This document shows positions 25,775-49,914 of a stretch of 64,000 nucleotides of DNA, one piece after another (the first letter of the stretch is position 1; every line of letters starts with the position of its first letter). The notes beneath the pieces are model-generated. The model had not been told where the DNA came from, searched no databases, and saw nothing but the letters and a program-made list of their open reading frames with translations. The position numbers were made by a program, and so were the translations under genes. The DNA is from Goekera deserti (GTDB lineage: Bacteria > Actinomycetota > Actinomycetes > Mycobacteriales > Geodermatophilaceae): contig NZ_JAAGWK010000020.1 in assembly GCF_010685995.1 (NCBI RefSeq), positions 1 to 64,000 of the forward strand, in the 5' to 3' direction.

Positions 25775-26311
25775 ATGAGCACCTCCGTCCTGCGGTTCGC
25801 CCCGCCCGCGCGCACCCGCCCGGCCCGTCCCGCGCCGGTCACGCCGAACCCGCACGGCCGGCACGAGGTCGCCGCGACGCTCCCCGGCCGGCAGGAGCTG
25901 CTCGACCACCTGGCCCGGCTGCAGCCCACCTCCCACGAGGCGGCAGGCACGCTGCTGCTGATCGGCCTGGTGCACACCGAGGCCACCGTGTACCCGGCCG
26001 CGACGGTGCTGGACACCGCCACCTCGTTGATCTCCTACGCCCTGCGCGAGGGCGACCTGCTCGGCCGCGCCGGCCCCGCCGAGTTCGCGGCCGTCGTCCA
26101 GGGCTCCGACGCCGACGCCGACGCCGCGGCCGCCCGGGTGCTCGCCGCCGTCGGTGCCGCCCGGATCCCCGGGCTGACCGTGGCCGCCGGCACCGCCGCA
26201 CTGCAGCCCGACCGCCGCCCGGCGGAGATCCTGCGCCGGGCCACCCTCAGCCTGACCGTCGCCCGCTCGATCGGCGGGGGCCAGGTGATCCGCTACCGCG
26301 GGTCCCGCTGA
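25775..26311 (+). CDS. Small stand-alone degenerate GGDEF protein, copy 1
   Basis: A 178-residue soluble protein that has the size and pattern of a lone GGDEF domain. LPGRQELLDHLARL corresponds to the family's D-x-LT-x-LPNR entry, LLLIGLVHTE to the first beta strand, and GDLLGRAGPAEFAAVV to the signature hairpin. The motif reads GPAEF instead of GGDEF, so diguanylate cyclase activity is not expected. The C-terminus (ILRRATLSLTVARSIGGG) matches the A-x-x-A-x-x-x-AK helix of the fold. Two paralogues follow at 27361 and 30421. It might bind nucleotide or a partner. Confidence 0.72.
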   Translation: MSTSVLRFAPPARTRPARPAPVTPNPHGRHEVAATLPGRQELLDHLARLQPTSHEAAGTLLLIGLVHTEATVYPAATVLDTATSLISYALREGDLLGRAGPAEFAAVVQGSDADADAAAARVLAAVGAARIPGLTVAAGTAALQPDRRPAEILRRATLSLTVARSIGGGQVIRYRGSR

Positions 26312-26348: not shown

Positions 26349-26585
26349 GTGAAGAGCAGCATCGACGGCCTCGGGCGGATCGTCGTCCCCAAGGCCCTCC
26401 GTGACGCACTGGGTCTGACCCCCGGCACGGCGGTCGACATCAGCCGGTACGGGGCGGGGCTGCAGCTCCTGCCGGCAGGCCGCACCGCCCGACTCGTCGA
26501 CGACGACGGACTGCTCGTGGCCGACTCGACCACCCCGGTCACCGACGACGACGTCTTCGGCATCCTCGACGCCGGCCGGCGGTGA
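26349..26585 (+). CDS. vapB: AbrB/MazE/SpoVT-type antitoxin
   Basis: A 78-residue DNA-binding antitoxin. SSIDGLGRIVVPKALRDALG followed by LTPGTAVDISRYGAGLQL is the swapped-hairpin AbrB fold. The C-terminal part (VTDDDVFGILDAGRR) would wrap the partner toxin. GTG start at 26349. Its stop overlaps the toxin start by 4 bases (26582-26585), as in most type II modules. These modules normally repress their own promoter. Confidence 0.9.
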   Translation: MKSSIDGLGRIVVPKALRDALGLTPGTAVDISRYGAGLQLLPAGRTARLVDDDGLLVADSTTPVTDDDVFGILDAGRR

Positions 26586-26995
26586 CCACCCTGGCGTTCG
26601 ACACCAGCGCCGCCGTGCCGCTGCTGGTCCGCTCGCACGACGCCCACCTCGACGTCCGCCGGCACGCGACGGGTCGCGCGTGGGTGCTCACCGCCCACTC
26701 CCAGCTGGAGACGTACTCCGTGCTCACCCGCCTGCCCGGCGATGCCCGGGTCGAGCCCGCCGACGCCGTCCGGCTGCTCGACGCGGCCTTCGGCACCCCG
26801 GTGCTGCCCGACCCGGAGGACGTGGCCCACCTGCCCGCCACCCTGGCCGCCGCCGGGATCGCCGGTGGCGCCGTGTACGACGCACTCGTCGGCCTGACGG
26901 CTCGCACGGCGGACGTGCCGCTGCTCACCCGCGACGCCCGCGCGCTCGCCACCTACAGCCGACTCGGGGTCACGGTGGAGCTCGTCGCGGGCTGA
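26582..26995 (+). CDS. vapC: PIN-domain toxin (VapC family)
   Basis: A 137-residue PIN-domain ribonuclease. The first metal-binding aspartate is in LAFDTSAAVPLL (D7), the conserved glutamate in HSQLETYSVLTRL, and the later acidic pair in VYDALVGLTARTADVPLLTRDARA. VapC enzymes cut tRNA or rRNA when not held by the antitoxin. Coupled to the AbrB-type antitoxin by GTGA. The pair sits between two degenerate GGDEF paralogues. Confidence 0.9.
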   Translation: MTTLAFDTSAAVPLLVRSHDAHLDVRRHATGRAWVLTAHSQLETYSVLTRLPGDARVEPADAVRLLDAAFGTPVLPDPEDVAHLPATLAAAGIAGGAVYDALVGLTARTADVPLLTRDARALATYSRLGVTVELVAG

Positions 26996-27360: not shown

Positions 27361-27903
27361 ATGACCACCCTGGACCTCGCTCCCACGCGTCCGGCGACGC
27401 CCCACTCGGCCGCTGCCGCGGCCGCCTCCGCTGCCCTGCGCTCGCTCGGCACGGCCTCCGTCGCCTCCCTGCTACCCGGCCGATCCGCCGTCCTCGACCA
27501 CCTCGCCGAGGTGCTGCCCGGCTCCGACACCCACCCCACCTCGCTGGTGATCGTGGGCCTGCTGCGCCGCGACGACACCTGGCCGACCGCGCCGGGCGTG
27601 CTCGACGTGGTGACCAGCCTGCTCGCCGGCACCGTGCGCGGCGACGACTGGCTCGGCCACACCGGGCACGCCGAGTTCGCCGCCGTGCTCTCCGGCGACG
27701 CCGCCGACGCGGAGGTCGCTGCGGCACGCGTGCTGGCCGCGGTCACCGAGGCCGGCATCCCGGGCGTGCGCGCCTGCGCGGGCGTCACCGTGCTCAGCTC
27801 GGACGTCACCCCCGCCGAGGCGCTCCGCCGGGCGACCCTCAGCCTGACCGTCGCCCGCTCCGTCGGCCCCGAGCAGGTGATCCGCTACAGCGGTTCCCGC
27901 TGA
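27361..27903 (+). CDS. Small stand-alone degenerate GGDEF protein, copy 2
   Basis: A 180-residue protein homologous to the one at 25775-26311. Its tail ALRRATLSLTVARSVGPEQV continuing to IRYSGSR is almost identical to copy 1. The signature hairpin is DDWLGHTGHAEFAAVL, with GHAEF in place of GGDEF, so both catalytic glycine and acidic positions are altered. An alanine-rich N-terminal extension (about residues 15-40) precedes the domain. ATG at 27361. A strong hairpin follows the stop. Likely a receptor or pseudo-enzyme; function unknown. Confidence 0.72.
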   Translation: MTTLDLAPTRPATPHSAAAAAASAALRSLGTASVASLLPGRSAVLDHLAEVLPGSDTHPTSLVIVGLLRRDDTWPTAPGVLDVVTSLLAGTVRGDDWLGHTGHAEFAAVLSGDAADAEVAAARVLAAVTEAGIPGVRACAGVTVLSSDVTPAEALRRATLSLTVARSVGPEQVIRYSGSR

Positions 27904-30420: not shown

Positions 30421-30933
30421 ATGACCTGCGTCGAGAACCGCCCCGTGGCCGGGACAGCCGTGGGAGCGCCCACGACCGGGACCGACTCCCCACCCGTGAC
30501 CGACCTGCTCCCCGGCCGGCTCGCCCTGCTGGACCACCTCACCGGCGTGCTGCCCTTCGCCTCCGCGCAGGCCACCACGCTCGTGCTGATCGGCATCGTG
30601 CACACCGAGGACGGCGCGCTCCCCCCGGTCGCCGTCCTCGCCCGGACGACGCGGCTGATCGCCTCCTCGCTGCGCGGCGACGACTGGCTGGGCCGCTCCG
30701 GCCCCGGCGAGGTCGCCGCGGTGCTGGCCGGCACCGCGGAGGACGCGCACAGCGCCGCCGCTCGGGTGCTCGACGGGATCGCCACGCTCGGCGTCCCCGA
30801 CCTGGCCGCAGCTGCGGGCATCGTCGTCCTGTCGGCCGACCTGACCGGCGAGCAGGCGCTGCAGCGGGCCGCCGCCGCCCTCGACGACGCCCGCTCCCGC
30901 ACCCGGGGACGGATCGTCCTGACCGCCGGCTGA
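30421..30933 (+). CDS. Small stand-alone degenerate GGDEF protein, copy 3
   Basis: A 170-residue protein of the same family as the genes at 25775 and 27361, with LLPGRLALLDHLTGVLPF, LVLIGIVHTEDGALPP and GDDWLGRSGPGEVAAVLAG. GGDEF has become GPGEV, the most altered of the three. The C-terminal helix (EQALQRAAAALDDARSRTRG) still fits the fold. ATG at 30421. It converges on the formate dehydrogenase operon with 46 bases between stops. Confidence 0.7.
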   Translation: MTCVENRPVAGTAVGAPTTGTDSPPVTDLLPGRLALLDHLTGVLPFASAQATTLVLIGIVHTEDGALPPVAVLARTTRLIASSLRGDDWLGRSGPGEVAAVLAGTAEDAHSAAARVLDGIATLGVPDLAAAAGIVVLSADLTGEQALQRAAAALDDARSRTRGRIVLTAG

Positions 30934-33354: not shown

Positions 33355-36300
33355 TCACGGCGTCTCCTCCACGGCCACCCGGCCACCGATCGGCATCGTC
33401 CCGGAGCGGACGCCGGCACGCCGGCGGAAGCCCTCCACGTACTCGGGCAGCGCCGCACCGCGCGGGCGCCGGCCGGGGCGGATGTCGCAGGTGGCGACCT
33501 TGAACTCCTGGATGTGCACGTTGGGGTCCATGACCACCCCCATCAGGTCGTTGGCCGAGTCGCCGGTGGACAGGCCCTCGGCGCCCCAGTGGTAGGGGAT
33601 GCCGATCTGGTGCACGACCCGGCCGCCCTTCAGCCGCAGGGGCCGCATCCGCTCGGTGACCAGGACCCGGGCCTCGATCGCCGAGCGCGCACTGATCAGC
33701 GTCGCCCAGCCACCGTTGTCCAGGCCGCGCTCGGTGGCCAGCGCCGGTGACACCTCGACGAAGAACTCCGGCTGCAACTCCGACAGGTAGGGCAGCGTGC
33801 GGCTCATCGCACCGGCGGTGTGGTGCTCGGTGAGCCGGTAGGTGGTGAACACGTACGGGTAGACGTCGCTGGTCGGCGGGTTGCCCCGGTTGTACGGCGC
33901 CTGGATCTCCTCGATGCCGGGGTTGGCCTGCACGCCGTACAGCGCGTTCTCCACCGGGGACTCGGCCGGCTCGTAGTGCGTCGGCATCGGACCGTCGGCC
34001 AGGCCCTTGGGCGCGAACAGCCAGGCCTTCCCGTCGCCCTGCATGATGAACGGGTCGGCACCACCGATGCCGGCCTGCGCCTTGGCGCCCGGCGGCGGCA
34101 CGTGGTCCGGGCGCTTGGTGGCCTCGAAGTCCGGCACGTCGTCACCGGTCCAGCGACCGGCTGCCTCGTCCCACCACACGTACTTCTTGCGCTCGCTCCA
34201 CGGCTTGCCCGCGGGGTCGGCCGAGGCGCGGTTGTACAGCGTGCGCCGGTTGTACGGCCAGGCCCAGCCCCACTCCGCGGCCACGTAGTCCTGCTCCCGG
34301 CCGGGACGGCGACGGTCGGCCTGGTTGACCTCGTCGGCGTAGACGCCGCTGTAGATCCAGCAGCCGCCGGTGGTCGAGCCGTCGTCCTTCATGTCCATGT
34401 ACCCCGACAGCGCCCGACCGTCCGGGCCGACGCCGTTGATCTCCCGCAGCACGGCCTCGGCGCTGGGCTCGACCTGCTCGCCGTGGGTCGGGTAGTCCCA
34501 GGTCAGGTCCAGCAGCGGCCGGTCGCGCGGGTCGGTCGAGCCGGCCAGCTTCTCCCGCAGGATCCGGCCCAGGTGGAAGTAGAACCACAGGTCGCTGCGG
34601 CAGTCGCCCGGCGGCTGGACGGCCTGGTGCCGCCACTGCAGCAGCCGCTGGGTGTTGGTGAAGGTGCCCTCCTTCTCCGCGTGCGTGGCCGCCGGCATGT
34701 AGAAGACCTCGGTGCCGATCTCCTCGGTGACCAGCTCCCCGGTCTCGATCTCCGGGGCCGTCTTCCAGAAGCTGGCCGACTCGATCATCTGCAGGTCACG
34801 GACGACGAGCCAGTCCAGGTTGGCCAGCCCGAAGCGCTGCATGCGGCCGTTGGCGTGGCCGACGGCCGGGTTCTCGCCCACCAGGAAGTAGCCCGGGACC
34901 TTGCCCGCGACCATGTCGGCGATCGTCCGGTAGGAGCTGTGGTCCCCGGTGATCTTCGGGATGTACCCGAAGCAGTAGTCGTTCTCGGCGGTCGCCGCGT
35001 CGCCCCACCAGCTCTTGAGCAGGCTCACCGTGTAGGCGCGCATGTTGCCCCAGAAGCCGATCGCGCCGCTGTTCTCGGCGCAGTAGTCGTCCAGGCTCTG
35101 GTGCTGCAGCGCGTGCGGCATGGGCAGGTAGCCGGGCAGCAGGTTGAACAGCGTCGGGACGTCGGTCGACCCCTGGATGCTGGCGTGCCCGCGCAGCGCG
35201 AGGATCCCGCCGCCGGGCCGGCCCATGTTGCCCAGCAGCGACTGCAGGATCGCCGCGGTGCGGATGTACTGCGCGCCGACGGTGTGGTGCGTCCAGCCGA
35301 CGGAGTACACCCACGCCGTCGTCCGCTCGCGGCCGCTGTTCTCGGTGACGGCCGTCGCGACCTCGAGGAAGACCTCGGGCTCGACGCCGCAGATGTCGGC
35401 CACTATCTCCGGGGTGTACCGGGCGAAGTGCCGCTTGAGCACCTGGAAGACGCAGCGGGGGTGCTGCAGGGTCTCGTCCCGCAGCGGCTTGGCGTGCAGC
35501 GGGGGCCCACCGCTGCCGAAGGCCTGGTGCGGGTCGGCCTCCTTGACCGACTCGTCCTGGGCCAGCCGCTCCTGCTCCTGCGCGCCGGCCGGGTCGTCCT
35601 GGTCGACGCCGTCCCCGGGACGGTCGGTGTGGCCGGTCTCGCCGCTGCCGACCTGGCTCTCGAACTGCCAGCTGGCCTCGTCGTAGTGGCCGGTCTCCGG
35701 GTCGAAGCCGGAGAACAGGCCGTCGAGGTCCTCGGTGTCGACGAAGTCCTCGCCGACGATCGCCGCGGCGTTCGTGTAGGCGACGACGTACTCACGGAAG
35801 TCGAGGTCGTTGCTCAGGACGTGGTTGATGATGCCGCCGAGGAAGGCGATGTCGGTGCCGACCCGGATGGGCACGTGCACGTCGGACACCGCGCTGGTGC
35901 GGGTGAACCGGGGGTCGATGTGGATGACCTTCGCCCCGCGCGCCTTGGCCTCCATCACCCACTGGAACCCCACCGGATGGCACTCGGCCATGTTCGAACC
36001 CTCGATGACGATGCAGTCGGAGTTCGCCAGGTCCTGCTGGAAGTTCGTGGCGCCGCCACGACCGAACGTGGTCCCCAGACCGGGGACCGTGGCGGAGTGC
36101 TATATGCGGGCCTGGTTCTCGATCTGGATGGCCCCCATGGCGCTGTAGAGCTTCTTCATGAGGTAGTTCTCTTCGTTGTCCAGCGTCGCGCCACCGAGGC
36201 TGGCCACCCCCATCGTGCGGTTGACCGGGTGCCCGCCGTCGGTGTCCTGCCAGCCCTTCCGGCGCGCGTCCAGGACCCGGTCGGCGATCATGTCCATCGC

Positions 36301-36690
36301 GACGTCGAGGTCCAGGTCGGTCCACTCGGTGGCGTGCGGGGCGCGGTAGCGCACCGTGGTGACCCGGCTGGGGCTGGTGACCAGCGACTTGCTGGCGCTG
36401 CCCTTGGGGCAGAGCCGGCCGCGGCTGATCGGAGAGTCGGGGTCGCCCTCGATCTGCACGATCTGCTCGTCCTTGACGAAGATCCGCTGGCCGCAGCCGA
36501 CGGCGCAGTACGGGCAGACGCTCTGCACGACGCGGTCGGCGGTGGCCGTGCGGCTCACCACCTGCTCCGTCGCCTTGCTGCGCGCGGCCGCGCCGCGGCC
36601 GAGCGGGTCGGGTCCGGTGAGCTGCCGGAACACCGGCCAGGAGTCGAGCCAGGTCTTCACCCGCCCGATGCTGCCACTGCCGTGCGACAT
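33355..36690 (-). CDS. fdhA: Formate dehydrogenase catalytic subunit, selenoprotein with UAG at the Sec position
   Basis: Molybdopterin bis-MGD enzyme that oxidises formate. Read through one TAG it is 1111 residues, the usual size of FdnG/FdoG-type subunits. The N-terminal 4Fe-4S site is VCPYCAVGCGQRIF with a later RGRLCPKGSASKS. The active-site stretch reads NQARI, then TAG (residue 197), then HSATVPGLGTTFGRGGATNF. In relatives this residue is Sec or Cys. The frame is intact on both sides (MAECHPVGFQWVMEAKARG onward), with no other lesion. ATG at 36690. It is first in an operon with the iron-sulfur and NrfD-like genes. No selenocysteine synthesis genes are in view. A gene caller would split it at the TAG. 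Confidence 0.92.
36070..36088 (-). promoter_or_regulatory. SECIS-like hairpin downstream of the UAG codon
   Basis: The minus strand reads GGTCCCCGGTCTGGGGACC: a perfect 7-bp stem with the loop GGTCT. The stem starts 11 bases after the TAG and the loop 18 bases after it, within the spacing allowed for bacterial SECIS elements. The E. coli fdhF SECIS apical loop, bound by SelB, also contains GGUCU. The element is in frame within coding sequence, as bacterial SECIS elements are. Confidence 0.88.
36100..36102 (-). other. In-frame TAG at the selenocysteine position
   Basis: The codon at 36102-36100 on the minus strand is TAG, between ATA (Ile196) and CAC (His198). Homologues have Sec (TGA) or Cys here. 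The flanking frame is fully conserved, so I read it as a recoded UAG decoded by a tRNA-Sec with a CUA anticodon. That tRNA is not in the window. Confidence 0.85.
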
Positions 36691-40636: not shown

Positions 40637-43363
40637 ATGATCATCCAGGCGGGTGACGTGCGGGTCGCCCGGCTCAGGCGCCACCGGGCCACGACCGATG
40701 GTGTCCAGGTGACCGCCCCCCTGTGGCGGCAGCCCGCTGCGGCTGCTGTCACCGCCTCGACAGCCGTGCTGCTCACGGCTGCCGTCACCACGCCCTTCCG
40801 CGGGGTGCAGTGGGACTCCCTGGTCACCGCGCTGGCCCTCACCCACGCCTCGGTGCTGATGGTGCTCGCGGTCCGCCGGCTGCCCCGGTCCGAGCGCCGG
40901 CCGTGGGCCTACGCCCTGCTGGCGGTCGCGGCGGCCACCCTGCAGCTGCTGTCCACCAACCTGCCCGCGCAGGACCTGTTCTCCGTGGCCAACGCGGTGC
41001 TGTTCGTGCCCTCCGGTGGTGGCGCGATCGCCTGCTGCTGGGCCCTGTCCCGCGCCGCGGGCCGCGCGGGGGTCACCCCGTCGGTCTTCGGCGCGGACTC
41101 GGTCTACGTCGTCGCCTCGGTGTTCACCCTCGCCTACGCCCTGCTCGTCGAGCCCCTGCAGACGACCCGTGCGGTCACCGGCACGGAGACCGCGACCCTC
41201 GTCGGCTACTGCGTCTACGCCGCGATGTCGATCGGCTACGCGGCCGTGGTGGTCACCCGGGTCTCGCCCCGGCTGCGGGCCGCAGCCACGGTGCTGCTCG
41301 GCGCGATGGTGTTCACCGCCGTCTCGGCCAGCGCGTTCGTGCTGATGGAGCTGCTCGACCCGCGCGTGTGGATGACCGTCTCGAACCTGGCCCTGCTGGT
41401 GGCCGGGTACCTCGTCGTCGTCGCGGTGCGCATGGCCGGCCGGCCGGACCGGACCACCCCCCGGGACGACGACGGCGCCGGCACCGCCCTGCGCGTGCTC
41501 CAGGTCGCGCTGCTGGCCCCGGCGGTGGCCCTGCTCAGCACGCTGCTGCGCGGCACCCCGATCAGCACCACGCTGGTGGTGCTCCTCTTCCTGCTGTTCC
41601 TGTGCAGCGCGCTCGGCATCGGCGCGTTCGTCTACCGGATGGCGGGGCTGGACCGGCAGCTGACCCGCACCCAGCAGGACCTGCTGAGCCTGATCGACGG
41701 CAGCAGCGACCCGATCGTCGTGCTCGACCGGGAGCTGCGGGTGGTGGCCTGCTCCCCGGTCGTGGCCGGCGTGCTCCGGCTGGGCGACGGCCCGGTCCTG
41801 GGCACCCGGCTGCCCGACCTGTTCGTCGCCGAGGACCGCGACCTGCTGCGCGCTGCCCTGCAGCCGGGCGGGCTCCGGGGACAGGGCGGGACACAGGGTG
41901 CCGGTCCGGAGCTGGTCCGCCTGGACGGCGGCCGTGACGGTGTGCGCGACCTGGAGGTCGTCTGCTCGGGCACGGTGGAGGACCAGCTCGTGGTGCGGAT
42001 CGACGACGTCACCGACCGGCGCGAGCAGCTGCGCTCGCTGGCGCGGATGGCCTACACCGACCACCTGACCGGCCTGCCCAACCGCGCGGCGTTCGAGGAC
42101 GCCGGCGCTGCCTGGGCCGCCGAGCACGCGGACGCACCGGCCGGTGTCCTGGTGGTCGACCTGGACGGCTTCAAGGCCGTCAACGACACCGCCGGGCACG
42201 AGGCGGGCGACCTGCTGCTGGTCGAGGTCGGCCGCCGGCTGCGCCGCGTGGTCCGCGACGAGGACGTCGTGGCCCGCCTGGGCGGGGACGAGTTCGCGCT
42301 GCTGGTCCGGGGCCTGCCGGACGAGGTCGACGACGTCGCCCGCCGGCTCCTCACGTCCGTCTCCCTGCCCTACGCGACCGTCGGCGGGGACTTCCCCGTC
42401 GGGGCGAGCATCGGGGTGAGCTCGCTGGGCCCGGCCGGTGCCCAGGCTGCCGTCCGGGAGGCCGACGAGGCGCTGCGCTCGGCGAAGGAGCTCGGCAAGG
42501 GCTGCGTGCGCCGGCACACCCCGGCGGTCGTCGAGCAGTCCCGGCGCACCACCGTGCTCTCCCGCGATCTGGTGCCGGCCCTGCGCGCCGGCCGGCTGCG
42601 GGTCGGGTACCGGCCGGTCACCGCACCGGGCACGGGACGGGTCACCGCGCTCGAGCTGACCCCGACCTGGGACCACCCGGCCCTGGGCCCGGTCGCCGAC
42701 GACGTGGTGCGGGCCCTGGCCCACCGCCACGGCGTCACCGCCGAGGTGCAGCGCTGGCTGGTCGGTCAGGCCCTGGAGGAGGCCGGCCCGCTGCTGCGCG
42801 GCCTGGACGTCGCACTCGCCGCCTCCGTGGCCGCCGACGAGCGCCTCCCGCAGGGGCGGGCCGCCCACTGGCTCGCCCGGATCGACGGCGCCGGCCTGCG
42901 GACCGACCAGATCGTGCTGCTGGTGAGCGAGGAGGTGCTGGCCACCGCCGGGGAGGACGTCGTCGCCGTGGTCTCGGCGCTGCAGGCGGCCGGCGTGCGA
43001 CTCTGCGTCGCCGACCACGGCCTGGGCCGGACCCTGGTCGCCCAGCAGGCCCAGCTGCCCTTCGACGCCGTCCGGGTCGACCTCGGCGGGCTCGGCCGGG
43101 TGGACGCCGACCACGTCGCCCGGGCGGTGCGCTCGTGCGCTGCCGCCGCCGGGGCGTACGGCACGGACGTGGTGCTCGCCGGCGTCACGACCGCGGAGCA
43201 GTACGCCCTCGCCTGCGACCTGGACGTCGCCGGGGTGACCGGCCAGTTCGTGCACCAGGCGGTACCGGTCGCCGCGCTGCCGGCGCTGCTCGGCATCGAC
43301 GGCCCGGGCGCTGCCGCCGCCGACCCCTCCGGTCCCGCCGAGCTGGCCGGCAGCGCGTCATGA
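40637..43363 (+). CDS. Membrane PAS-GGDEF-EAL protein 1: intact GGDEF, degenerate EAL
   Basis: A 908-residue protein. Seven or eight N-terminal helices (about 35-330) are followed by a PAS domain (about 345-420, SLIDGSSDPIVVLDRELRVV), a GGDEF domain and an EAL-like domain. Residues 549-553 are GGDEF in VARLGGDEFALLVRG, so diguanylate cyclase activity is likely. The EAL half has TALELTPTWDHP in place of E-A-L-x-RW and VADHGLGRT in place of DDFGTG, so it should not degrade cyclic di-GMP. ATG at 40637; a GTG at 40709 is an alternative. Its stop overlaps the next start by ATGA. Confidence 0.87.
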   Translation: MIIQAGDVRVARLRRHRATTDGVQVTAPLWRQPAAAAVTASTAVLLTAAVTTPFRGVQWDSLVTALALTHASVLMVLAVRRLPRSERRPWAYALLAVAAATLQLLSTNLPAQDLFSVANAVLFVPSGGGAIACCWALSRAAGRAGVTPSVFGADSVYVVASVFTLAYALLVEPLQTTRAVTGTETATLVGYCVYAAMSIGYAAVVVTRVSPRLRAAATVLLGAMVFTAVSASAFVLMELLDPRVWMTVSNLALLVAGYLVVVAVRMAGRPDRTTPRDDDGAGTALRVLQVALLAPAVALLSTLLRGTPISTTLVVLLFLLFLCSALGIGAFVYRMAGLDRQLTRTQQDLLSLIDGSSDPIVVLDRELRVVACSPVVAGVLRLGDGPVLGTRLPDLFVAEDRDLLRAALQPGGLRGQGGTQGAGPELVRLDGGRDGVRDLEVVCSGTVEDQLVVRIDDVTDRREQLRSLARMAYTDHLTGLPNRAAFEDAGAAWAAEHADAPAGVLVVDLDGFKAVNDTAGHEAGDLLLVEVGRRLRRVVRDEDVVARLGGDEFALLVRGLPDEVDDVARRLLTSVSLPYATVGGDFPVGASIGVSSLGPAGAQAAVREADEALRSAKELGKGCVRRHTPAVVEQSRRTTVLSRDLVPALRAGRLRVGYRPVTAPGTGRVTALELTPTWDHPALGPVADDVVRALAHRHGVTAEVQRWLVGQALEEAGPLLRGLDVALAASVAADERLPQGRAAHWLARIDGAGLRTDQIVLLVSEEVLATAGEDVVAVVSALQAAGVRLCVADHGLGRTLVAQQAQLPFDAVRVDLGGLGRVDADHVARAVRSCAAAAGAYGTDVVLAGVTTAEQYALACDLDVAGVTGQFVHQAVPVAALPALLGIDGPGAAAADPSGPAELAGSAS

Positions 43364-46200
43364 CCGCCGTCACGCCCGCGGCCGGCGGCGGCCGCACCGA
43401 CGCGCCCGGCGACCAGGCCCGCCCCGCAGGGGTGAGGGTGCGGTCCGCCGCGCTCCAGGGCAGTCCCGGGCGGGCCGACCAGGGAGAGGTGAGCTCCCCA
43501 CCCGTGTCAGTGCCGGCACCGGTCCCGGTGGGGCCGGCGCGGCCGGCGGCGACCGGGCGTCGGACCCGGGGCGACCTCGTCGTCGCCGGCCTGCTCACCG
43601 CCGTCGCCGTCCTGGTGCTGGTCGGGTTCGCCGCCCCCGGGCTCCGGCCGCCGGCGCTGGGCCCGGTGCTCGTGGTGCTCGCGTCAGTGGCCGCCGTGGT
43701 GCTCTGGCGCTCGGTCGCCGGCGGCCGTGCCCAGCGTGGCTGGCGGCTGGTCGCGGCGGGCGTGGTGCTCAGCACCGCCGGCGTCGTGATCGGCACCGAC
43801 GTCGACGGCCCCGGCTCCAGCACGCTGCTCGGCCTGCCCGGCCAGGTCGTCTCCCTGCTCGGCGTGGTGTGCATGATGGACCGCGCCGCCTGGCGCGAGC
43901 GGCGGCTGCAGCTGTGCATCGCGCTGGCCCTGTTCGTCGACGCCGCAGTGCTCACCGGCTACGGCCTCTACTCCGCCCTCGGCGTCTGGGACCGGGTCGC
44001 CGGCGCGCAGGCCACGGCCGGGCTCGTCGTCACGCTGCTGGTCGGCGGGCTCCGGCCCGGTGTCGCGCTGCTGCTGTGCCTGACCGTCCCGCGGGGGAAG
44101 CGACGGATGGCACTGCTGCTGATGGTGGCCGAGGCGACCTCCAGCCTGGGGTGGCTGCTCGTCAACATGGCCGACGGCGTGCTGGTGGCCGGCCTGCCGC
44201 TGCCGACCGCGCCGTCGCTGCCCGCCGCCGCCTTCGCCGTCAGCATCGCGCTGTTCCTGCTCAGCCAGCGGCTGGACCGCTCCTCCCGGCCACCGGACCC
44301 CGACCAGCGGTGGTCGCTGTCCGGCTCGGTCGTCGCGGTCCTGCCGCACCTCACCGCCTGGATGGGCGGCAGCGTCCTGCTGCTGGACGCCGCCCGCTCG
44401 CAGCAGGTGACCGGCCCGGCCTTCGCCCTGGGCATCACCGGCCTGGGCCTGATCGCCGTCCACCAGCTCGTCGTCGACGCCCAGCAGCAGCGGCTCACCG
44501 CGCAGCTGGCCCGCAGCGAGGCCTACTTCCGCACGCTGGCCCGCACCAGCGCCTCCCCCATCCTCATCGTCGACGACGAGCTCCGGGTCAGCTGGTCCTC
44601 CCCGAGCCTGGTCGACCTGCTCGGTGAGGGCGCCGGTGAGCTCGTCGGCCACCGGGTCACCAACGGCGTGCACCGGGACGACCTCCCGACGGTCTACGCG
44701 GCGCTGTCCGCCCGCCAGCCCGCCGGCAGTGCCGAGACCCGATCGCGGACCGCGCGGGTGCGGCACAGCGACGGGAGCTGGCGGCTGATCGAGATCACCG
44801 CGCGGGACCTGCGCGAGGACGCCGACGTCGGTGCGATGGTGCTGTACCTGCGCGAGGTGGCCGGCGCCCGCACCGTGGACCTGCCGCAGACCTCCCTGGA
44901 GTACGCCGACCAGGAGACCGGTCTGCCCAGCCGCCCCGCCCTGGTGCAGCGGCTGACCGGGCTGCTGCGCGAGCTGCGGCCCGGCACCGAGCCGGTCACG
45001 CTCGTGACCCTCGCGGTGTCCGGTCTGGACGGTGCCCGGGTGCTCGGCCCGGACGCCGAGACCGACCTGCGGCGCCAGGTCGTCACCACCCTGGCGCGCG
45101 GGCTGCGCAGTCACGACTGGCTGGCCCAGCGCTCCCCCGACTCGTTCTCCGTGCTGGTCGGCGGCTCGGTCTCCGACGCCGAGACCCTGGCCCAGCGGCT
45201 GGTCGACGCGGTGGTCTCGGTGCCCTCGGGTGCTGCCCGGCTGACCGCGGTCGCCGGCGTGCTCCCGCTGGGACGTGGTGCCGGCACCGACGGCGAGTCA
45301 CTGGACGCCGGCGAGGCACTGCGCCGGGCCGACCTGGCCCTGGCCGGCGCGCGGGAGACCGGGCCCGGCTCGGTGCGCCGCTACGACGACGCCCTGCGGG
45401 CTGCGCAGGGGCGCCGCGACCAGCTGCGCACCGACCTCGCCGGTGCCCTGGCCCGGGGCGAGCTGCGCATGGTCTACCAGCCCGTCGTCGACCTCGCGCT
45501 GCACGCGCCGGCCGGCGTGGAGGCGCTCATGCGGTGGCAGCACCCCGAGTTCGGGGCGGTGTCCCCGGCCGACTTCATCCCGCTGGCCGAGGAGTCCGGG
45601 CTGATCGTCGACCTGGGCCGCTGGGCGCTGGTGCAGGCCTGCACCGCGACCGGGCAGCTGGCCGCCGACGAGCTGTACGTGGCCGTGAACGTCTCGGCCC
45701 GGCACGTGCTCAGCGGCCAGGTCGTGGACGACGTGGTGTCGGCCCTGGCGAGCAGCGGCCTGCGCCCCGACCGGCTGGTCCTGGAGATCACCGAGTCGGT
45801 GCTGCTGGACGAGCTGCACATCACCGACGACCTGGAGGCGCTGCGCCAGCTGGGCGTCCGCATCGCGGTGGACGACTTCGGCACCGGCTGGTCCTCGCTG
45901 GCCCGCCTGGTGAGCCTGCCGATCGACGTGCTCAAGATGGACCGCGCCTTCCTCACCGACCTGGAGACCGACCCGCAGCGCCGCTCGCTGTGCCGCTCGG
46001 TGCTGCAGCTGGGCTCCAGCCTGGGCCTGGCCGTGATCGTCGAGGGCGTGGAGCGGACGGCTGAGCTGCAGCTGCTGCAGGACATGGGGCACCGCTTCGT
46101 GCAGGGCTTCCTGCTCGCCCGGCCGATGGAGCTGGCCCAGCTCACCGACCGGCTGGCCGACCACGACTGGACGACGGCACTCGTGAGGAGCGACCGATGA
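43360..46200 (+). CDS. Membrane PAS-GGDEF-EAL protein 2: degenerate GGDEF, intact EAL
   Basis: A 946-residue protein with about nine N-terminal helices (about 65-375), a PAS domain (about 385-500), a GGDEF-like domain and a C-terminal EAL domain. The signature loop is AQRSPDSFSVLVGG, so the cyclase motif is lost. The EAL half is canonical: VEALMRWQHPEFG (EAL 721-723), VNVSARHVLSG, VLEITESVLLDE, AVDDFGTGWSSL (838-843), LKMDRAFL and VIVEGVERTAEL. It should hydrolyse cyclic di-GMP. ATGA overlaps at both ends put it in one translationally coupled operon with its neighbours. Confidence 0.9.
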   Translation: MTAVTPAAGGGRTDAPGDQARPAGVRVRSAALQGSPGRADQGEVSSPPVSVPAPVPVGPARPAATGRRTRGDLVVAGLLTAVAVLVLVGFAAPGLRPPALGPVLVVLASVAAVVLWRSVAGGRAQRGWRLVAAGVVLSTAGVVIGTDVDGPGSSTLLGLPGQVVSLLGVVCMMDRAAWRERRLQLCIALALFVDAAVLTGYGLYSALGVWDRVAGAQATAGLVVTLLVGGLRPGVALLLCLTVPRGKRRMALLLMVAEATSSLGWLLVNMADGVLVAGLPLPTAPSLPAAAFAVSIALFLLSQRLDRSSRPPDPDQRWSLSGSVVAVLPHLTAWMGGSVLLLDAARSQQVTGPAFALGITGLGLIAVHQLVVDAQQQRLTAQLARSEAYFRTLARTSASPILIVDDELRVSWSSPSLVDLLGEGAGELVGHRVTNGVHRDDLPTVYAALSARQPAGSAETRSRTARVRHSDGSWRLIEITARDLREDADVGAMVLYLREVAGARTVDLPQTSLEYADQETGLPSRPALVQRLTGLLRELRPGTEPVTLVTLAVSGLDGARVLGPDAETDLRRQVVTTLARGLRSHDWLAQRSPDSFSVLVGGSVSDAETLAQRLVDAVVSVPSGAARLTAVAGVLPLGRGAGTDGESLDAGEALRRADLALAGARETGPGSVRRYDDALRAAQGRRDQLRTDLAGALARGELRMVYQPVVDLALHAPAGVEALMRWQHPEFGAVSPADFIPLAEESGLIVDLGRWALVQACTATGQLAADELYVAVNVSARHVLSGQVVDDVVSALASSGLRPDRLVLEITESVLLDELHITDDLEALRQLGVRIAVDDFGTGWSSLARLVSLPIDVLKMDRAFLTDLETDPQRRSLCRSVLQLGSSLGLAVIVEGVERTAELQLLQDMGHRFVQGFLLARPMELAQLTDRLADHDWTTALVRSDR

Positions 46201-48779
46201 CGCTGCCCGAGCGCCTGCCGGTGCGCCCGCTGCTGGTCAACACCGTGCTCACGGTGCTGGCCATGAGCGTGGCGCTGCACCTGGACGCCACCCACGACCG
46301 CAACCGGGACGACCTGGTGCTGGCGCTGTCCGCGGTGCACGTCAGCTGGCTGGTCGTGCGGCTGCTGCGCGGCACGGACCGCGCGGCCGCCCGGCCCTGG
46401 CGCTGGCTCCTGGTCGCAGCGACCCTGCTGGCCCTGGCCTGCCTGGGCACCGGCAGCGGCATGACCCGCGAGCTCGGCACCCTCGGCGTGCCGGACCTGC
46501 TGCTGATCGGGGCGGCCGTGTGTCCGCTGGTCACCTGCGTGCTGCTCGCCGCGGCCACCGGCCGCACCGCCGGCCGGCTGGTGCTGGCGCTGGACGGCGC
46601 CGTCCTGCTCGGCACCGTGCTGGTCATCGGGGAGGTGCACGTGCTCACCCCGGCGCTGCGACCCGAGGCCGTCACCGATGCGCTGGCGCCGCTCGTCGTG
46701 GTCTACGGCTGCTACGCGGCGGTGGCCATCGGGCTGCCCAGCGCAGTGCTCATCGCCACCCGGGTCGAGCTGCGTGCCGCGGCGTCGCTGCTCACGCTGA
46801 TGGTGGCGCTGCAGGGCGTGGCCGGCATCTCGCTGGCGATGAGCGTGGACGAGTCCTCACCCACCTGGGAGCTGACCGCGAACCTCACCCTGTCGCTGAG
46901 CATGCTGGTCGGCGTCGCCGCGGTCGCTGTCGCGCCCCGGTCGCTGCCCCCACGCGGGCAGCACCAGCACCTCGCGGTGGGCCGGCTGGAACTGACGGTC
47001 ACCGTGCTCGCCCTCGCCGGGCTACCGGTCGACGTCGTCGTCATGCGGCTGCAGGGACAGACCCTGTCCACGACGGCGACGGTCGGCACCGCGGTCGTGA
47101 TGCTGCTGCTCGTGCTGCGCACGGCCGGTCGGATCGTGCACGGCCAGCGACTCAGCCGTGACCTGGTGGCCACCGAGGAGGACGTGCGCGACCTCGTCGA
47201 GGCCAGCTCGGACGGCGTCGTGATCATCGACGGTGACCTGGCCCTGGTGTCGGTCTCCCCCGTGGCCCGCGCCGTGCTCGGGCTGCCCCCCGGCCCGCTG
47301 CCGGCCGCCGGTTTCCCGTCGCTGGTGCACGAGGAGGACCGCGCGCTGGTCCAGCTGCAGCTCTGCGCCGCGCTGGTGCCCGAGGCCGGGCCGCTGCTGT
47401 TCCGGGTGCAGCTGGCCGGGGGGGTGCGCGAGGTGGAGACCACCATCACCGAGCGGCTGCACAGCCCGCGCCGGGTGCTGCACCTGCGGGACGTCACCGA
47501 CCGGCTCAGCCGCGAGCGCGAGCTCGAGCAGCTCGCGTTCACCGACCACCTGACCCAGCTGCCCAACCGGGCGATGCTGTTCCGGGAGCTGTCGCGGGAC
47601 GCCGGCGACGGGGCCCGCTCGCTGCTGGTGGTCGACCTGGACGGCTTCAAGGCCGTCAACGACGTCGCCGGCCACGAGGCCGGTGACCACCTGCTGATCG
47701 AGGTCGGCCGGCGGTTGCGCAACGTCGTGCGGGACGGCGACCTGGTGGCGCGCCTGGGCGGGGACGAGTTCGCGGTGCTGGTGGCCGGCGGCCTGGCCGA
47801 GGCGATCGACATCGCGCAGCGGGTCGTGGTCACCCTGACCCACCCGCACCGCACCGGCGGGTGGGCCTTCGGCGTCGGTGCCAGCGTGGGGGCCAGCACG
47901 ATGCTGCCCGGCGGCGGGCAGCTGGCCTTCCGGCAGGCCGACGCCGCCCTGCGCGCGGCCAAGCAGGCCGGCAAGGGCTGCCTGCGGGTGTGGACCGACG
48001 ACGGCGTCACCAGCGTCGCCGCGGACTCCGACCTGGTCGCCGCCCTCGTCGACGGGCAGGTGCAGCTGCGCCTGGACGTCGACGGCGACGGCCACGGCGG
48101 CACCGCCGTCCTGCACGCCTCCCCGGTGTGGGTGCACCCGGTGGCAGGCACGCTGCCCGCCGTCGAGGTGTGGGCCGCCGCCGAGCGTCAGGGGCGGGCC
48201 ACCGAGCTGAGCACCTGGCTGCTGGCCCGGGCCTGCACCGAGATCGCCGACTGGGCGCCGGGTGTGCTGCTGGCGCTGGACCTCACCGCCGCCCAGGCGC
48301 ACTCCGCCGACCTCGCCGGTGACGTGCTGTCCGCGCTGTCGGTGGCCGGGCTGTCCCCGCGCCGGCTGGTGCTCGCGCTCACCGAGGAGACCGCGCTCAC
48401 CGCACCCGCCTCGTTCGGCCCCGCACTGGTGCGGCTGCGCGACGCCGGGGTGCAGCTGGCGCTGGACGAGTTCGGCCTGGGTCAGACCCTGTTCGCCCAC
48501 CTGGACCGGCTGCCGCTGACCGCGGTGCGGGTCGACCTGTCCGCGTTCGTCCGGCAGGGCAGGCCTGATCTGGCCCCCCAGGTGCTGGCCTCCATCGTCA
48601 GCACCGCGCACGCCTTCGGCCTGCTCGCCGTGGCCGCCGGGGTGGACGGCCCCGAGCAGCTCGCCATGGCCCGCGCCGCGGGCGTGGACGCCTTCGGCGG
48701 CCGGGCGTTCCCGCAGGGCCTGACCGTGGCGTCGGCCCGCGCCCTGATCGGGCAGCGGCTGCCGTCCCCCACGCCCTGA
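46197..48779 (+). CDS. Membrane PAS-GGDEF-EAL protein 3: intact GGDEF, degenerate EAL
   Basis: An 860-residue protein with seven or eight N-terminal helices (about 15-310), a PAS-like segment (about 325-420, DLVEASSDGVVIIDGDLALV), GGDEF and EAL-like domains. GGDEF is intact (521-525, VARLGGDEFAVLVAG) and preceded by FTDHLTQLPNRAML. The EAL half lacks the EAL and DDFG motifs (VWVHPVAGTLPAVEVW; LALDEFGLGQTLF), so it is expected to be a pseudo-phosphodiesterase. It starts inside the stop of protein 2 (ATGA at 46197). It shares its catalytic pattern with protein 1. Confidence 0.88.
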   Translation: MTLPERLPVRPLLVNTVLTVLAMSVALHLDATHDRNRDDLVLALSAVHVSWLVVRLLRGTDRAAARPWRWLLVAATLLALACLGTGSGMTRELGTLGVPDLLLIGAAVCPLVTCVLLAAATGRTAGRLVLALDGAVLLGTVLVIGEVHVLTPALRPEAVTDALAPLVVVYGCYAAVAIGLPSAVLIATRVELRAAASLLTLMVALQGVAGISLAMSVDESSPTWELTANLTLSLSMLVGVAAVAVAPRSLPPRGQHQHLAVGRLELTVTVLALAGLPVDVVVMRLQGQTLSTTATVGTAVVMLLLVLRTAGRIVHGQRLSRDLVATEEDVRDLVEASSDGVVIIDGDLALVSVSPVARAVLGLPPGPLPAAGFPSLVHEEDRALVQLQLCAALVPEAGPLLFRVQLAGGVREVETTITERLHSPRRVLHLRDVTDRLSRERELEQLAFTDHLTQLPNRAMLFRELSRDAGDGARSLLVVDLDGFKAVNDVAGHEAGDHLLIEVGRRLRNVVRDGDLVARLGGDEFAVLVAGGLAEAIDIAQRVVVTLTHPHRTGGWAFGVGASVGASTMLPGGGQLAFRQADAALRAAKQAGKGCLRVWTDDGVTSVAADSDLVAALVDGQVQLRLDVDGDGHGGTAVLHASPVWVHPVAGTLPAVEVWAAAERQGRATELSTWLLARACTEIADWAPGVLLALDLTAAQAHSADLAGDVLSALSVAGLSPRRLVLALTEETALTAPASFGPALVRLRDAGVQLALDEFGLGQTLFAHLDRLPLTAVRVDLSAFVRQGRPDLAPQVLASIVSTAHAFGLLAVAAGVDGPEQLAMARAAGVDAFGGRAFPQGLTVASARALIGQRLPSPTP

Positions 48780-48915
48780 GCCGGGGCCGGGCCTGCGTCC
48801 CCCGGGCCCAGTCACCCACCCGGGAGGGGGACACGGCGACGGACACCACGTGAAGATCGTGTGAACGCGGTGACGGCGACGTGCCGAGCGGGCTCCGGTG
48901 GCCGACAGTGGGGCG

Positions 48916-49914
48916 ATGCGACCTGATGCCCGGGCCTGGTTCGAGCACCGCACCACCACGGCCACCTCGATGGCCGAGATCGACGTCGAAGCCCTGCTGC
49001 TGGCCAAGCGCCGCGGGGGCCACCGGGTGAGCGTCGTGCTCCCGGCGCGCAACGAGGAGGCCACCGTCGGCACCCTCGTGGCCGACCTGGCCGACCGCTG
49101 GGTGCACGGCACGCCCCTGGTCGACGAGCTGCTGGTCATCGACTCGGACTCCACCGACCGCACCGCCGAGGTGGCCCGGGCCGCCGGCGCCGACGTGGTG
49201 GCCACCGTCGACGTGCTGCCCGGCCACGGCAACCGGCCCGGCAAGGGCGAGGCGCTGTGGAAGTCGCTGGCCGCCACCAGCGGCGACATCGTGGTGTTCC
49301 TGGACTCCGACCTGCTCGGGGAGGTCGGCCACTACGTGCCCGGGTTGCTGACCCCGCTGCTGCTCGACCCGCGGGTCGACTACGTCAAGGGCTGCTACAC
49401 CCGGCCGCTGCACGTCGACGGCGTCGCGCGCCCGGCCGGTGGCGGCCGGGTCACCGAGCTCACCGCCCGCCCGCTGCTCAACGCGCTGTGGCCGGAGCTG
49501 GCCGGCTTCGTGCAGCCGCTGGGCGGGGAGTACGCCGGGCGGCGCAGCGTGCTGGAGCAGGTGCCGTTCGTCTCCGGCTACGGCGTGGAGATCGGCCTGC
49601 TCGTCGACCTGCTGCAGGAGTGCGGCCTGGCCGGTCTCGCCCAGGTCGACCTGGGCGTGCGCCGGCACTCGCACCAGACCGACGAGGCCCTGGGCCGGAT
49701 GGCCGGCCAGATCGTCTCCACCGTGCTGGCCCGCGCCGAGCGCGGCCGCACCGGACGCCGCCGCCTCGACCCGGGCGGGCTGCTGACGCAGTTCAGCAAC
49801 GACGGCACCGGCTTCATCCCGGTCAGCCACGCCGTCTCGGTCGACGAGCGCCCGCCGATGATCGCGGTCGCCGAGTACGCGGTCGCCCGCGGCGAGGTCG
49901 TCGAGCAGGCGTAG
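48916..49914 (+). CDS. gpgS: Glucosyl-3-phosphoglycerate synthase
   Basis: GT81/GT2-like enzyme that joins glucose from UDP/ADP-glucose to 3-phosphoglycerate, the first step to glucosylglycerate and methylglucose lipopolysaccharides. The 332 residues show VSVVLPARNEEATVGTLVAD, LLVIDSDSTDRTAEVARAAG, PGKGEALWKSLAATSGD, the metal site VFLDSDLLGE and GEYAGRRSVLEQVPFVSGYG, all typical of GpgS. ATG at 48916 fits the conserved start RAWFEHRT; a GTG six codons upstream is possible. Length matches mycobacterial GpgS. Confidence 0.93.
   Translation: MRPDARAWFEHRTTTATSMAEIDVEALLLAKRRGGHRVSVVLPARNEEATVGTLVADLADRWVHGTPLVDELLVIDSDSTDRTAEVARAAGADVVATVDVLPGHGNRPGKGEALWKSLAATSGDIVVFLDSDLLGEVGHYVPGLLTPLLLDPRVDYVKGCYTRPLHVDGVARPAGGGRVTELTARPLLNALWPELAGFVQPLGGEYAGRRSVLEQVPFVSGYGVEIGLLVDLLQECGLAGLAQVDLGVRRHSHQTDEALGRMAGQIVSTVLARAERGRTGRRRLDPGGLLTQFSNDGTGFIPVSHAVSVDERPPMIAVAEYAVARGEVVEQA

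Follow-up and report, generated by a model that had tools for sequence, protein, structure and literature searches.

How does one operon come to hold three neighbouring genes of the same GGDEF-EAL design, each with one apparently live and one dead catalytic half, and what can the dead halves be for? The question is raised by a 64,000-nucleotide stretch of DNA from Goekera deserti (Geodermatophilaceae; contig NZ_JAAGWK010000020.1), here called the window, in which three such genes, P1, P2 and P3, follow one another on the + strand. A preliminary description of this locus had proposed that they are sister copies of a bifunctional ancestor which lost complementary halves inside the operon, giving two diguanylate cyclases and one phosphodiesterase of cyclic di-GMP (c-di-GMP) in a fixed ratio, possibly as a complex. 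Our analysis leads to a different picture, in which P2 and P3 are a conserved two-gene unit of the Geodermatophilaceae with a fixed split of live and dead domains, and P1 is an extra copy of the cyclase beside it.

Live and dead domains of the three proteins

40637..43363, + strand: P1, 908 amino acids (aa) from a predicted start codon; membrane region resembling ten transmembrane helices (10TM), PAS, live GGDEF (42050-42499), dead EAL (42563-43255); predicted diguanylate cyclase, the extra copy
43360..43363, + strand: ATGA overlap of the P1 stop and the P2 start
43360..46200, + strand: P2, 946 aa; 10TM, PAS, dead GGDEF (44905-45363, with SPDSF at 45133-45147), live EAL (45433-46125); predicted c-di-GMP phosphodiesterase
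45106..45117, + strand: RSHD, the RxxD inhibition-site (I-site) motif that P2 retains in its dead GGDEF; 62/62 orthologues have both R and D
46197..46200, + strand: ATGA overlap of the P2 stop and the P3 start, a 4-base start/stop overlap retained in 51 of the 53 relatives that have the pair
46197..48779, + strand: P3, 860 aa; 10TM, PAS, live GGDEF (47535-47975, with the GGDEF motif at 47757-47771), dead EAL (48102-48710); predicted diguanylate cyclase

The ATGA junctions at 43360 and 46197 are as previously described, and all three genes stop at TGA. The shared membrane-PAS-GGDEF-EAL layout also stands for the most part. Pfam profiles match GGDEF and EAL in P1 (125 and 99 bits) and in P3 (116 and 129 bits), and EAL in P2 (224 bits), where GGDEF reaches just 16 bits, under the cut-off of 23.8. 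AlphaFold models of P3 and P2 (mean predicted local distance difference test, pLDDT, 85.2 and 78.6) place ten long helices N-terminal to the PAS domain; hydropathy gives seven N-terminal segments in P1. The PAS domain is the weaker element of the layout, with one Pfam match above cut-off each in P1 and P2 and a score of 22.2 against a cut-off of 22.6 in P3, while TIGR00229 (sensory_box) exceeds its own cut-off in P2 and P3. The membrane domain has no Pfam match, and the 50 best fold matches listed are all PAS-GGDEF-EAL or EAL structures, which give no sensor type for it.

The three proteins are related over most of their length. P1 and P3 align nearly from end to end at 35% identity, P2 is alignable with either from the PAS domain onward at 28-29%, and profile comparison links the membrane part of the P3 family to that of the P2 family (hhalign probability 92%, E 6e-7, 15% identity). 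Descent of all three from one 10TM-PAS-GGDEF-EAL ancestor, as had been proposed, is thus supported by these alignments.

Alignment of the catalytic residues separates them. P1 and P3 retain the Mg-binding Asp, the N/D of FKxxND, RxxD and GGDEF, the residues expected of a diguanylate cyclase. P2 lacks the GG(D/E)EF motif, replaced by SPDSF, and the Mg Asp, and keeps RxxD as RSHD; it has all 11 of the 11 scored metal, ligand and catalytic residues of an EAL phosphodiesterase, so that the earlier account of P2 holds in full. P1 and P3 keep 4 and 3 of these 11. The reported loss of both EAL and DDFG is correct for P3, which has HASPVW and DEFG in their places, and only partly for P1, where the Glu of EAL is still there (ELTPTW) and the losses fall on R, N, the first E of ExxE, the first D of DDFG, K, the last E and Q. 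P1 and P3 are therefore predicted to be cyclases without phosphodiesterase activity and P2 the reverse. The dead EAL of P3 is nevertheless modelled as an EAL barrel (pLDDT mostly 75-95; TM 0.85, 2.6 Å to the MorA phosphodiesterase domain), with the live EAL of P2 giving the better fit to an EAL-c-di-GMP complex structure (TM 0.92, 1.6 Å).

Conservation of the P2-P3 pair

In a family set of 112 genomes (that of the window and 111 others), the P3 membrane region found a match above 70 bits in 60 of the 111. Fifty-eight of these 60 P3 orthologues were analysed in full, two being cut by contig ends, and 62 genomes have a P2 orthologue with both domains. The two genes stand together in 53 relatives belonging to five genus codes (17, 15, 12, 8 and 1), and, counting the window, the 4-base overlap is present at 52 of 54 loci, all but L070 and L142. 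At L070 (G001) the pair has a broken cyclase gene, with the membrane part split over two frames. Downstream of the pair lies a conserved landmark outside the system:

48898..49914, + strand: glycosyltransferase family 2 gene, presumably GpgS-like

It is on the same strand as the pair in all 48 cases where it was located. The gene neighbourhood of the pair offers no synteny partner that would account for the target of the module. A literature search, with subscription papers mostly outside its coverage, returned nothing on GGDEF proteins in Geodermatophilaceae, nor relevant c-di-GMP work in Modestobacter.

The split of live and dead domains recurs throughout. All 62 P2 orthologues have the full 11 scored EAL residues and RxxD, and all lack the Mg Asp. 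GGDEF, RxxD and the Mg Asp are each present in 58/58 P3 orthologues and the ND Asp in 57/58, while none of the 58 retains the E of EAL, the first E of ExxE, K or the last E; R survives in 2, N in 1 and Q in 3, and no P3 orthologue keeps more than 5 of the 11. As this pattern recurs, it is neither chance nor a sequencing effect. Together, the common strand and the 4-base overlap fit a coupled cyclase-phosphodiesterase operon, both activities being predicted ones.

The coupling is not absolute. The phosphodiesterase gene stands alone at seven loci (L132, L133, L134, L135, L137, L138 and L139) and the cyclase gene alone at three (L049, L064 and L155), each time with the adjoining genes in place; four more single-gene loci are cut by contig ends and are kept apart from this count. 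At 10 loci, then, one partner has been cleanly lost, which speaks against an obligate complex and shows that the partners are not strictly interdependent.

Within the matches listed, from which weaker relatives may be missing, the system is confined to the Geodermatophilaceae. In 249 genomes sampled from the order, a dead-EAL profile finds at least 26 places with 225-364 bits; every one is in this family, and the score that follows is 161 bits. At E 1e-50, a sample of the class gave matches in 2 of 394 genomes, both Geodermatophilaceae. A scan of named genomes gave at least 37 loci, 36 of them titled Blastococcus, Modestobacter, Klenkia, Geodermatophilus or Geodermatophilaceae. The remaining locus, L198, is titled Bacillus sp. 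AZ43 and marked UNVERIFIED_ORG; by content it groups with Blastococcus-type loci, and the Bacillus label is probably wrong.

An older pair, duplicated as a unit

The history of the pair can be read against a paralogous tandem pair, here called system B, of which the genome of the window has its own copy (L053, 4939-10553 on contig C1) and which also occurs at L066, L068, L069, L071, L140 and L141. Its gene order matches that of P2-P3, with the dead-GGDEF gene (B-first) leading; the second gene (B-second) retains both domains intact. In L053, L066 and L140 the EAL of B-first is changed at scored residues as well. Against its own kind the membrane-PAS profile of B-first reaches 350-550 bits; P2 orthologues score lower, and among the matches listed none outside the family exceeds 116 bits.

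The separate GGDEF and EAL trees were built from 15 of the 62 phosphodiesterase and 15 of the 58 cyclase orthologues, with the genome's own L179 and the partial L169 left out. In the GGDEF tree, P2 orthologues group with B-first (support 100/98), and P3 orthologues and P1 group with B-second (96/78); the alternative in which P2 joins P1 and P3 is rejected (approximately unbiased, AU, test, p 0.023). Both groups return in the membrane-PAS tree with 100/100 support, and there the alternative is rejected at p 5e-05. Since these groups appear in trees of two separate regions, we conclude that an already existing pair was duplicated as a unit. It could be objected that P2 and B-first come together as an artefact, two fast-evolving dead GGDEF domains attracting each other, and the stems of the dead GGDEF domains are indeed long (0.36-0.6). 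This explanation is scarcely credible, however, as the membrane-PAS region, which is not involved in the loss of GGDEF, yields the same grouping at 100/100, and the gene order of the two pairs is identical. In the EAL tree, joining the phosphodiesterases of the P2-P3 type with B-first costs 0.40 log units (p 0.466), so that this tree does not settle the two-pair branching.

The losses were sequential, because the GGDEF of B-first is dead too while B-second keeps both domains. The simplest reading of the sequences is that the ancestor was duplicated in tandem, that the first copy lost GGDEF function, that the pair was then copied, and that the second gene of one copy, the one leading to P2-P3, lost EAL function.

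P1, an apparent extra cyclase copy

A search with the P1 membrane region found no P1 orthologue in the 111 other family genomes. It matched 45 of them, and of these matches 43 are the P3 orthologue by coordinates, one is a paralogue (L170) and one is weak (21.5 bits). Likewise, no third gene of this type adjoins the pair in the 53 relatives.

In the GGDEF (100/97), EAL (99/94), full-length (99) and membrane-PAS (91/93) trees alike, P1 branches off beyond every P3 orthologue, as would an old paralogue surviving here alone. It may, on the other hand, be a recent duplicate of P3 that has evolved fast. P1 shares the operon of P3, its very long EAL and membrane branches (1.55 and 1.8) could push it outward artificially, and sisterhood of P1 and P3 survives the tests on EAL (AU p 0.159) and full length (p 0.052); the GGDEF tree rejects it (p 0.022). 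Given its consistent outside position, we regard the recent duplicate as doubtful, but a serious possibility. Modestobacter caceresii has, at a distance from the pair, a second P3-type gene with a dead EAL and fast evolution (L170 / L223); extra cyclase copies thus arose more than once.

These results bear on the three-gene scheme of the preliminary description. The common ancestor and the division of live and dead domains stand, but recent duplication within the operon into three sister copies is rejected by the GGDEF and membrane-PAS trees, which part P2 from P1 and P3 before the split of the two pairs. The ATGA coupling that runs across all three genes and a whole layout of shared ancestry would suit a fixed 2:1 cyclase:phosphodiesterase complex that arose by duplication of one bifunctional gene and complementary loss. 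Set against the trees, the absence of P1 elsewhere in the family and the single-gene losses at the pair locus in relatives, such a complex is very improbable. The fixed ratio is weakened by the lack of a third gene beside the pair, and an obligate 2:1 complex is disfavoured by the single-gene loci as well.

Constraint on the dead domains

Are the dead domains simply decaying leftovers, P2 being a plain phosphodiesterase and P1 and P3 plain cyclases with no allosteric role? They do evolve faster than the live ones in nearly all comparisons. The GGDEF of the phosphodiesterase is less conserved than its own EAL in 1368 of 1378 locus pairs, and the EAL of the cyclase less than its own GGDEF in 1361 of 1378; columns conserved at 95% number 22 of 242 in the dead EAL and 119 of 243 in the live EAL of P2. 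Yet the dead domain is still alignable, and of sufficient length, in all 58 P3 and all 62 P2 orthologues. Median ratios of nonsynonymous to synonymous substitution (dN/dS), by a simple count method on 197-198 close pairs that are related and non-independent, are 0.28 for the live EAL, 0.35 for the live GGDEF, 0.41 for the dead GGDEF and 0.52 for the dead EAL, all below 1. The dead EAL has a shared signature of its own (H for E in 53/58, GMG in 54/58), and RxxD is invariant in the dead GGDEF, its R and D being among the 23 of 149 columns invariant across the 62. We therefore consider mere decay unlikely.

A sensory role had been suggested for these domains, with c-di-GMP or GTP as ligand. For the dead GGDEF of P2, c-di-GMP sensing through RxxD is plausible. 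P2 resembles the I-site receptors of the CdgI/PelD type in keeping RxxD with a dead active site, and retention of RxxD is not automatic, since two other damaged GGDEF domains in the genome have lost it (EGERF with PPQA, SGEGF with PGRR). CdgI of Escherichia coli has a dead active site and an intact I-site, and the purified protein binds c-di-GMP (PMC5635695). By this description it serves as a model of how the dead GGDEF of P2, and the small proteins S1-S3 considered below, may work, although no EAL domain is described for CdgI. GTP sensing by the dead GGDEF of P2 is disfavoured, the Mg Asp and GG being lost, and so is c-di-GMP sensing by the dead EAL, where the ligand residues are lost.

The second Glu of ExxE, which matters for dimerisation in known EAL proteins, is retained in 57 of the 58 P3 orthologues. 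Loop 6 is likewise important for dimerisation in known EAL proteins (PMC7290235). A structural or contact role is thus suggested for the dead EAL, because its fold and the loop-6 Glu are kept.

A model for the operon

We favour, with moderate confidence, a model in which the operon is a membrane-bound antagonistic c-di-GMP module made of the coupled phosphodiesterase P2 and cyclase P3, with the second cyclase P1 added in this lineage, where the dead GGDEF of P2 tunes its EAL and the dead EAL is structural. According to this model, P2 and P3 would be produced by translational coupling; P1 and P3, judging from their motifs, would make c-di-GMP and P2 degrade it, so that P2 and P3 together would form a local membrane-bound source and sink. 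The ten-helix membrane domain and PAS of each protein may set both activities by the same or paired inputs, in the same place. Binding of c-di-GMP at RxxD, as in purified CdgI, is most likely what the dead GGDEF of P2 does, though no other step of the model is less secure; by tuning the EAL, it would let the breaker respond to its own substrate. The dead EAL of P3 and P1 would no longer bind c-di-GMP and would serve as a structural or contact domain.

Several observations weigh against this model. Either gene can stand alone, as at the 10 loci above. In P2 orthologues of the genera g2, g3 and g12 (L187, L191, L193 and other Blastococcus loci) the match to P2 starts only near residue 350, and their membrane part appears to be lost or very different; shared membrane sensing is therefore not general. 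In the tail of the dead GGDEF the D/E is retained in 62/62 and the F in 61/62, so RxxD is not the sole remnant and may be structural, and RxxD is kept in 2 of the 5 damaged GGDEF domains of the genome's other GGDEF-EAL proteins. The dN/dS values carry the dependence among pairs already stated, and the position of the fast-evolving P1 is not firm.

Known antagonistic systems resemble the pair in part. DosC is not known to carry an EAL, and LapD and FimX bind c-di-GMP through a degenerate EAL. The latter two are membrane or cytosolic GGDEF-EAL receptors with degenerate domains, and structures of LapD match the P2 and P3 models; compared by description, P3 differs in having an intact GGDEF and an EAL that, in most orthologues, is without the ligand Arg, Asn and Gln. 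In E. coli, a single operon encodes the cyclase DosC and the phosphodiesterase DosP (DgcO-PdeO), which form a complex in vitro (PMC8846402, PMC5635695). P2-P3 share the operon arrangement, and DosP is among the closest solved structures to the models; DosC-DosP, however, are cytosolic oxygen sensors, whereas P2 and P3 are membrane GGDEF-EAL paralogues with opposite dead halves. In Kosakonia oryzendophytica, two cyclases and one PAS-GGDEF-EAL phosphodiesterase (KoBdcA, KoBdcB and KoBpdA) are encoded near one operon and act antagonistically, with PAS-mediated contacts (PMC13141831). These cyclases are described without EAL and the cluster adjoins a cellulose operon, so that, unlike P1-P3, it is not a set of GGDEF-EAL paralogues. 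Streptomyces has CdgC, a membrane protein with GGDEF, a highly degenerate EAL and demonstrated cyclase activity, and RmdB, a membrane GGDEF-EAL phosphodiesterase (PMC6205966). By description these can be likened to P3 and P2, the cited passages describing no overlapping pair for them.

Small dead-GGDEF proteins and other genes of the window

Possible associates of the system are three small proteins of the window, each a dead GGDEF of the P2 lineage standing on its own:

25775..26311, + strand: S1, RxxD as REGD
27361..27903, + strand: S2, RxxD as RGDD; no Pfam match
30421..30933, + strand: S3, RxxD as RGDD

All three are placed within the P2 dead-GGDEF group (100/99). Relatives carry similar small frames, about 10 kb from the pair in several Modestobacter-group genomes. 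One may speculate that this lineage of dead GGDEF is a dedicated c-di-GMP receptor module, acting in cis in P2 and in trans in S1-S3 and their relatives, and that breaker, cyclase partner and small receptors would be one feedback circuit of former cyclase paralogues, but we consider this a long shot.

A PIN-domain protein (26582-26995, + strand, 44.2 bits) lies between two of the small GGDEF proteins, and a second PIN-like reading at about 29.3-29.8 kb was judged by eye. On the - strand, 33355-36450 is a formate dehydrogenase-like frame with an in-frame TAG, which we take to be the position of selenocysteine (Sec) or cysteine in such enzymes. A tRNA-Sec (65.4 bits) is present in the genome; its anticodon is CTA, and ARAGORN calls it Pyl. 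UAG-encoded Sec in Geodermatophilaceae has already been published (PMC5330540).

Implications

The locus, conserved and well placed in time against its paralogues, is a variant of the known antagonistic cyclase-phosphodiesterase pair, derived from reciprocally inactivated paralogues; it offers an evolutionary model and not a new kind of system. Its interest lies in the dead half, whose role in many GGDEF-EAL proteins is a standing question. The locus offers a clean natural comparison, in which one ancestral layout has given rise, within one conserved operon, to a dedicated breaker and a dedicated maker of c-di-GMP, and system B, in the same genomes, represents an earlier stage in which one gene still has both domains intact. 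Swaps between P2-P3 and system B would make the order of the losses and the roles of the dead halves directly testable.

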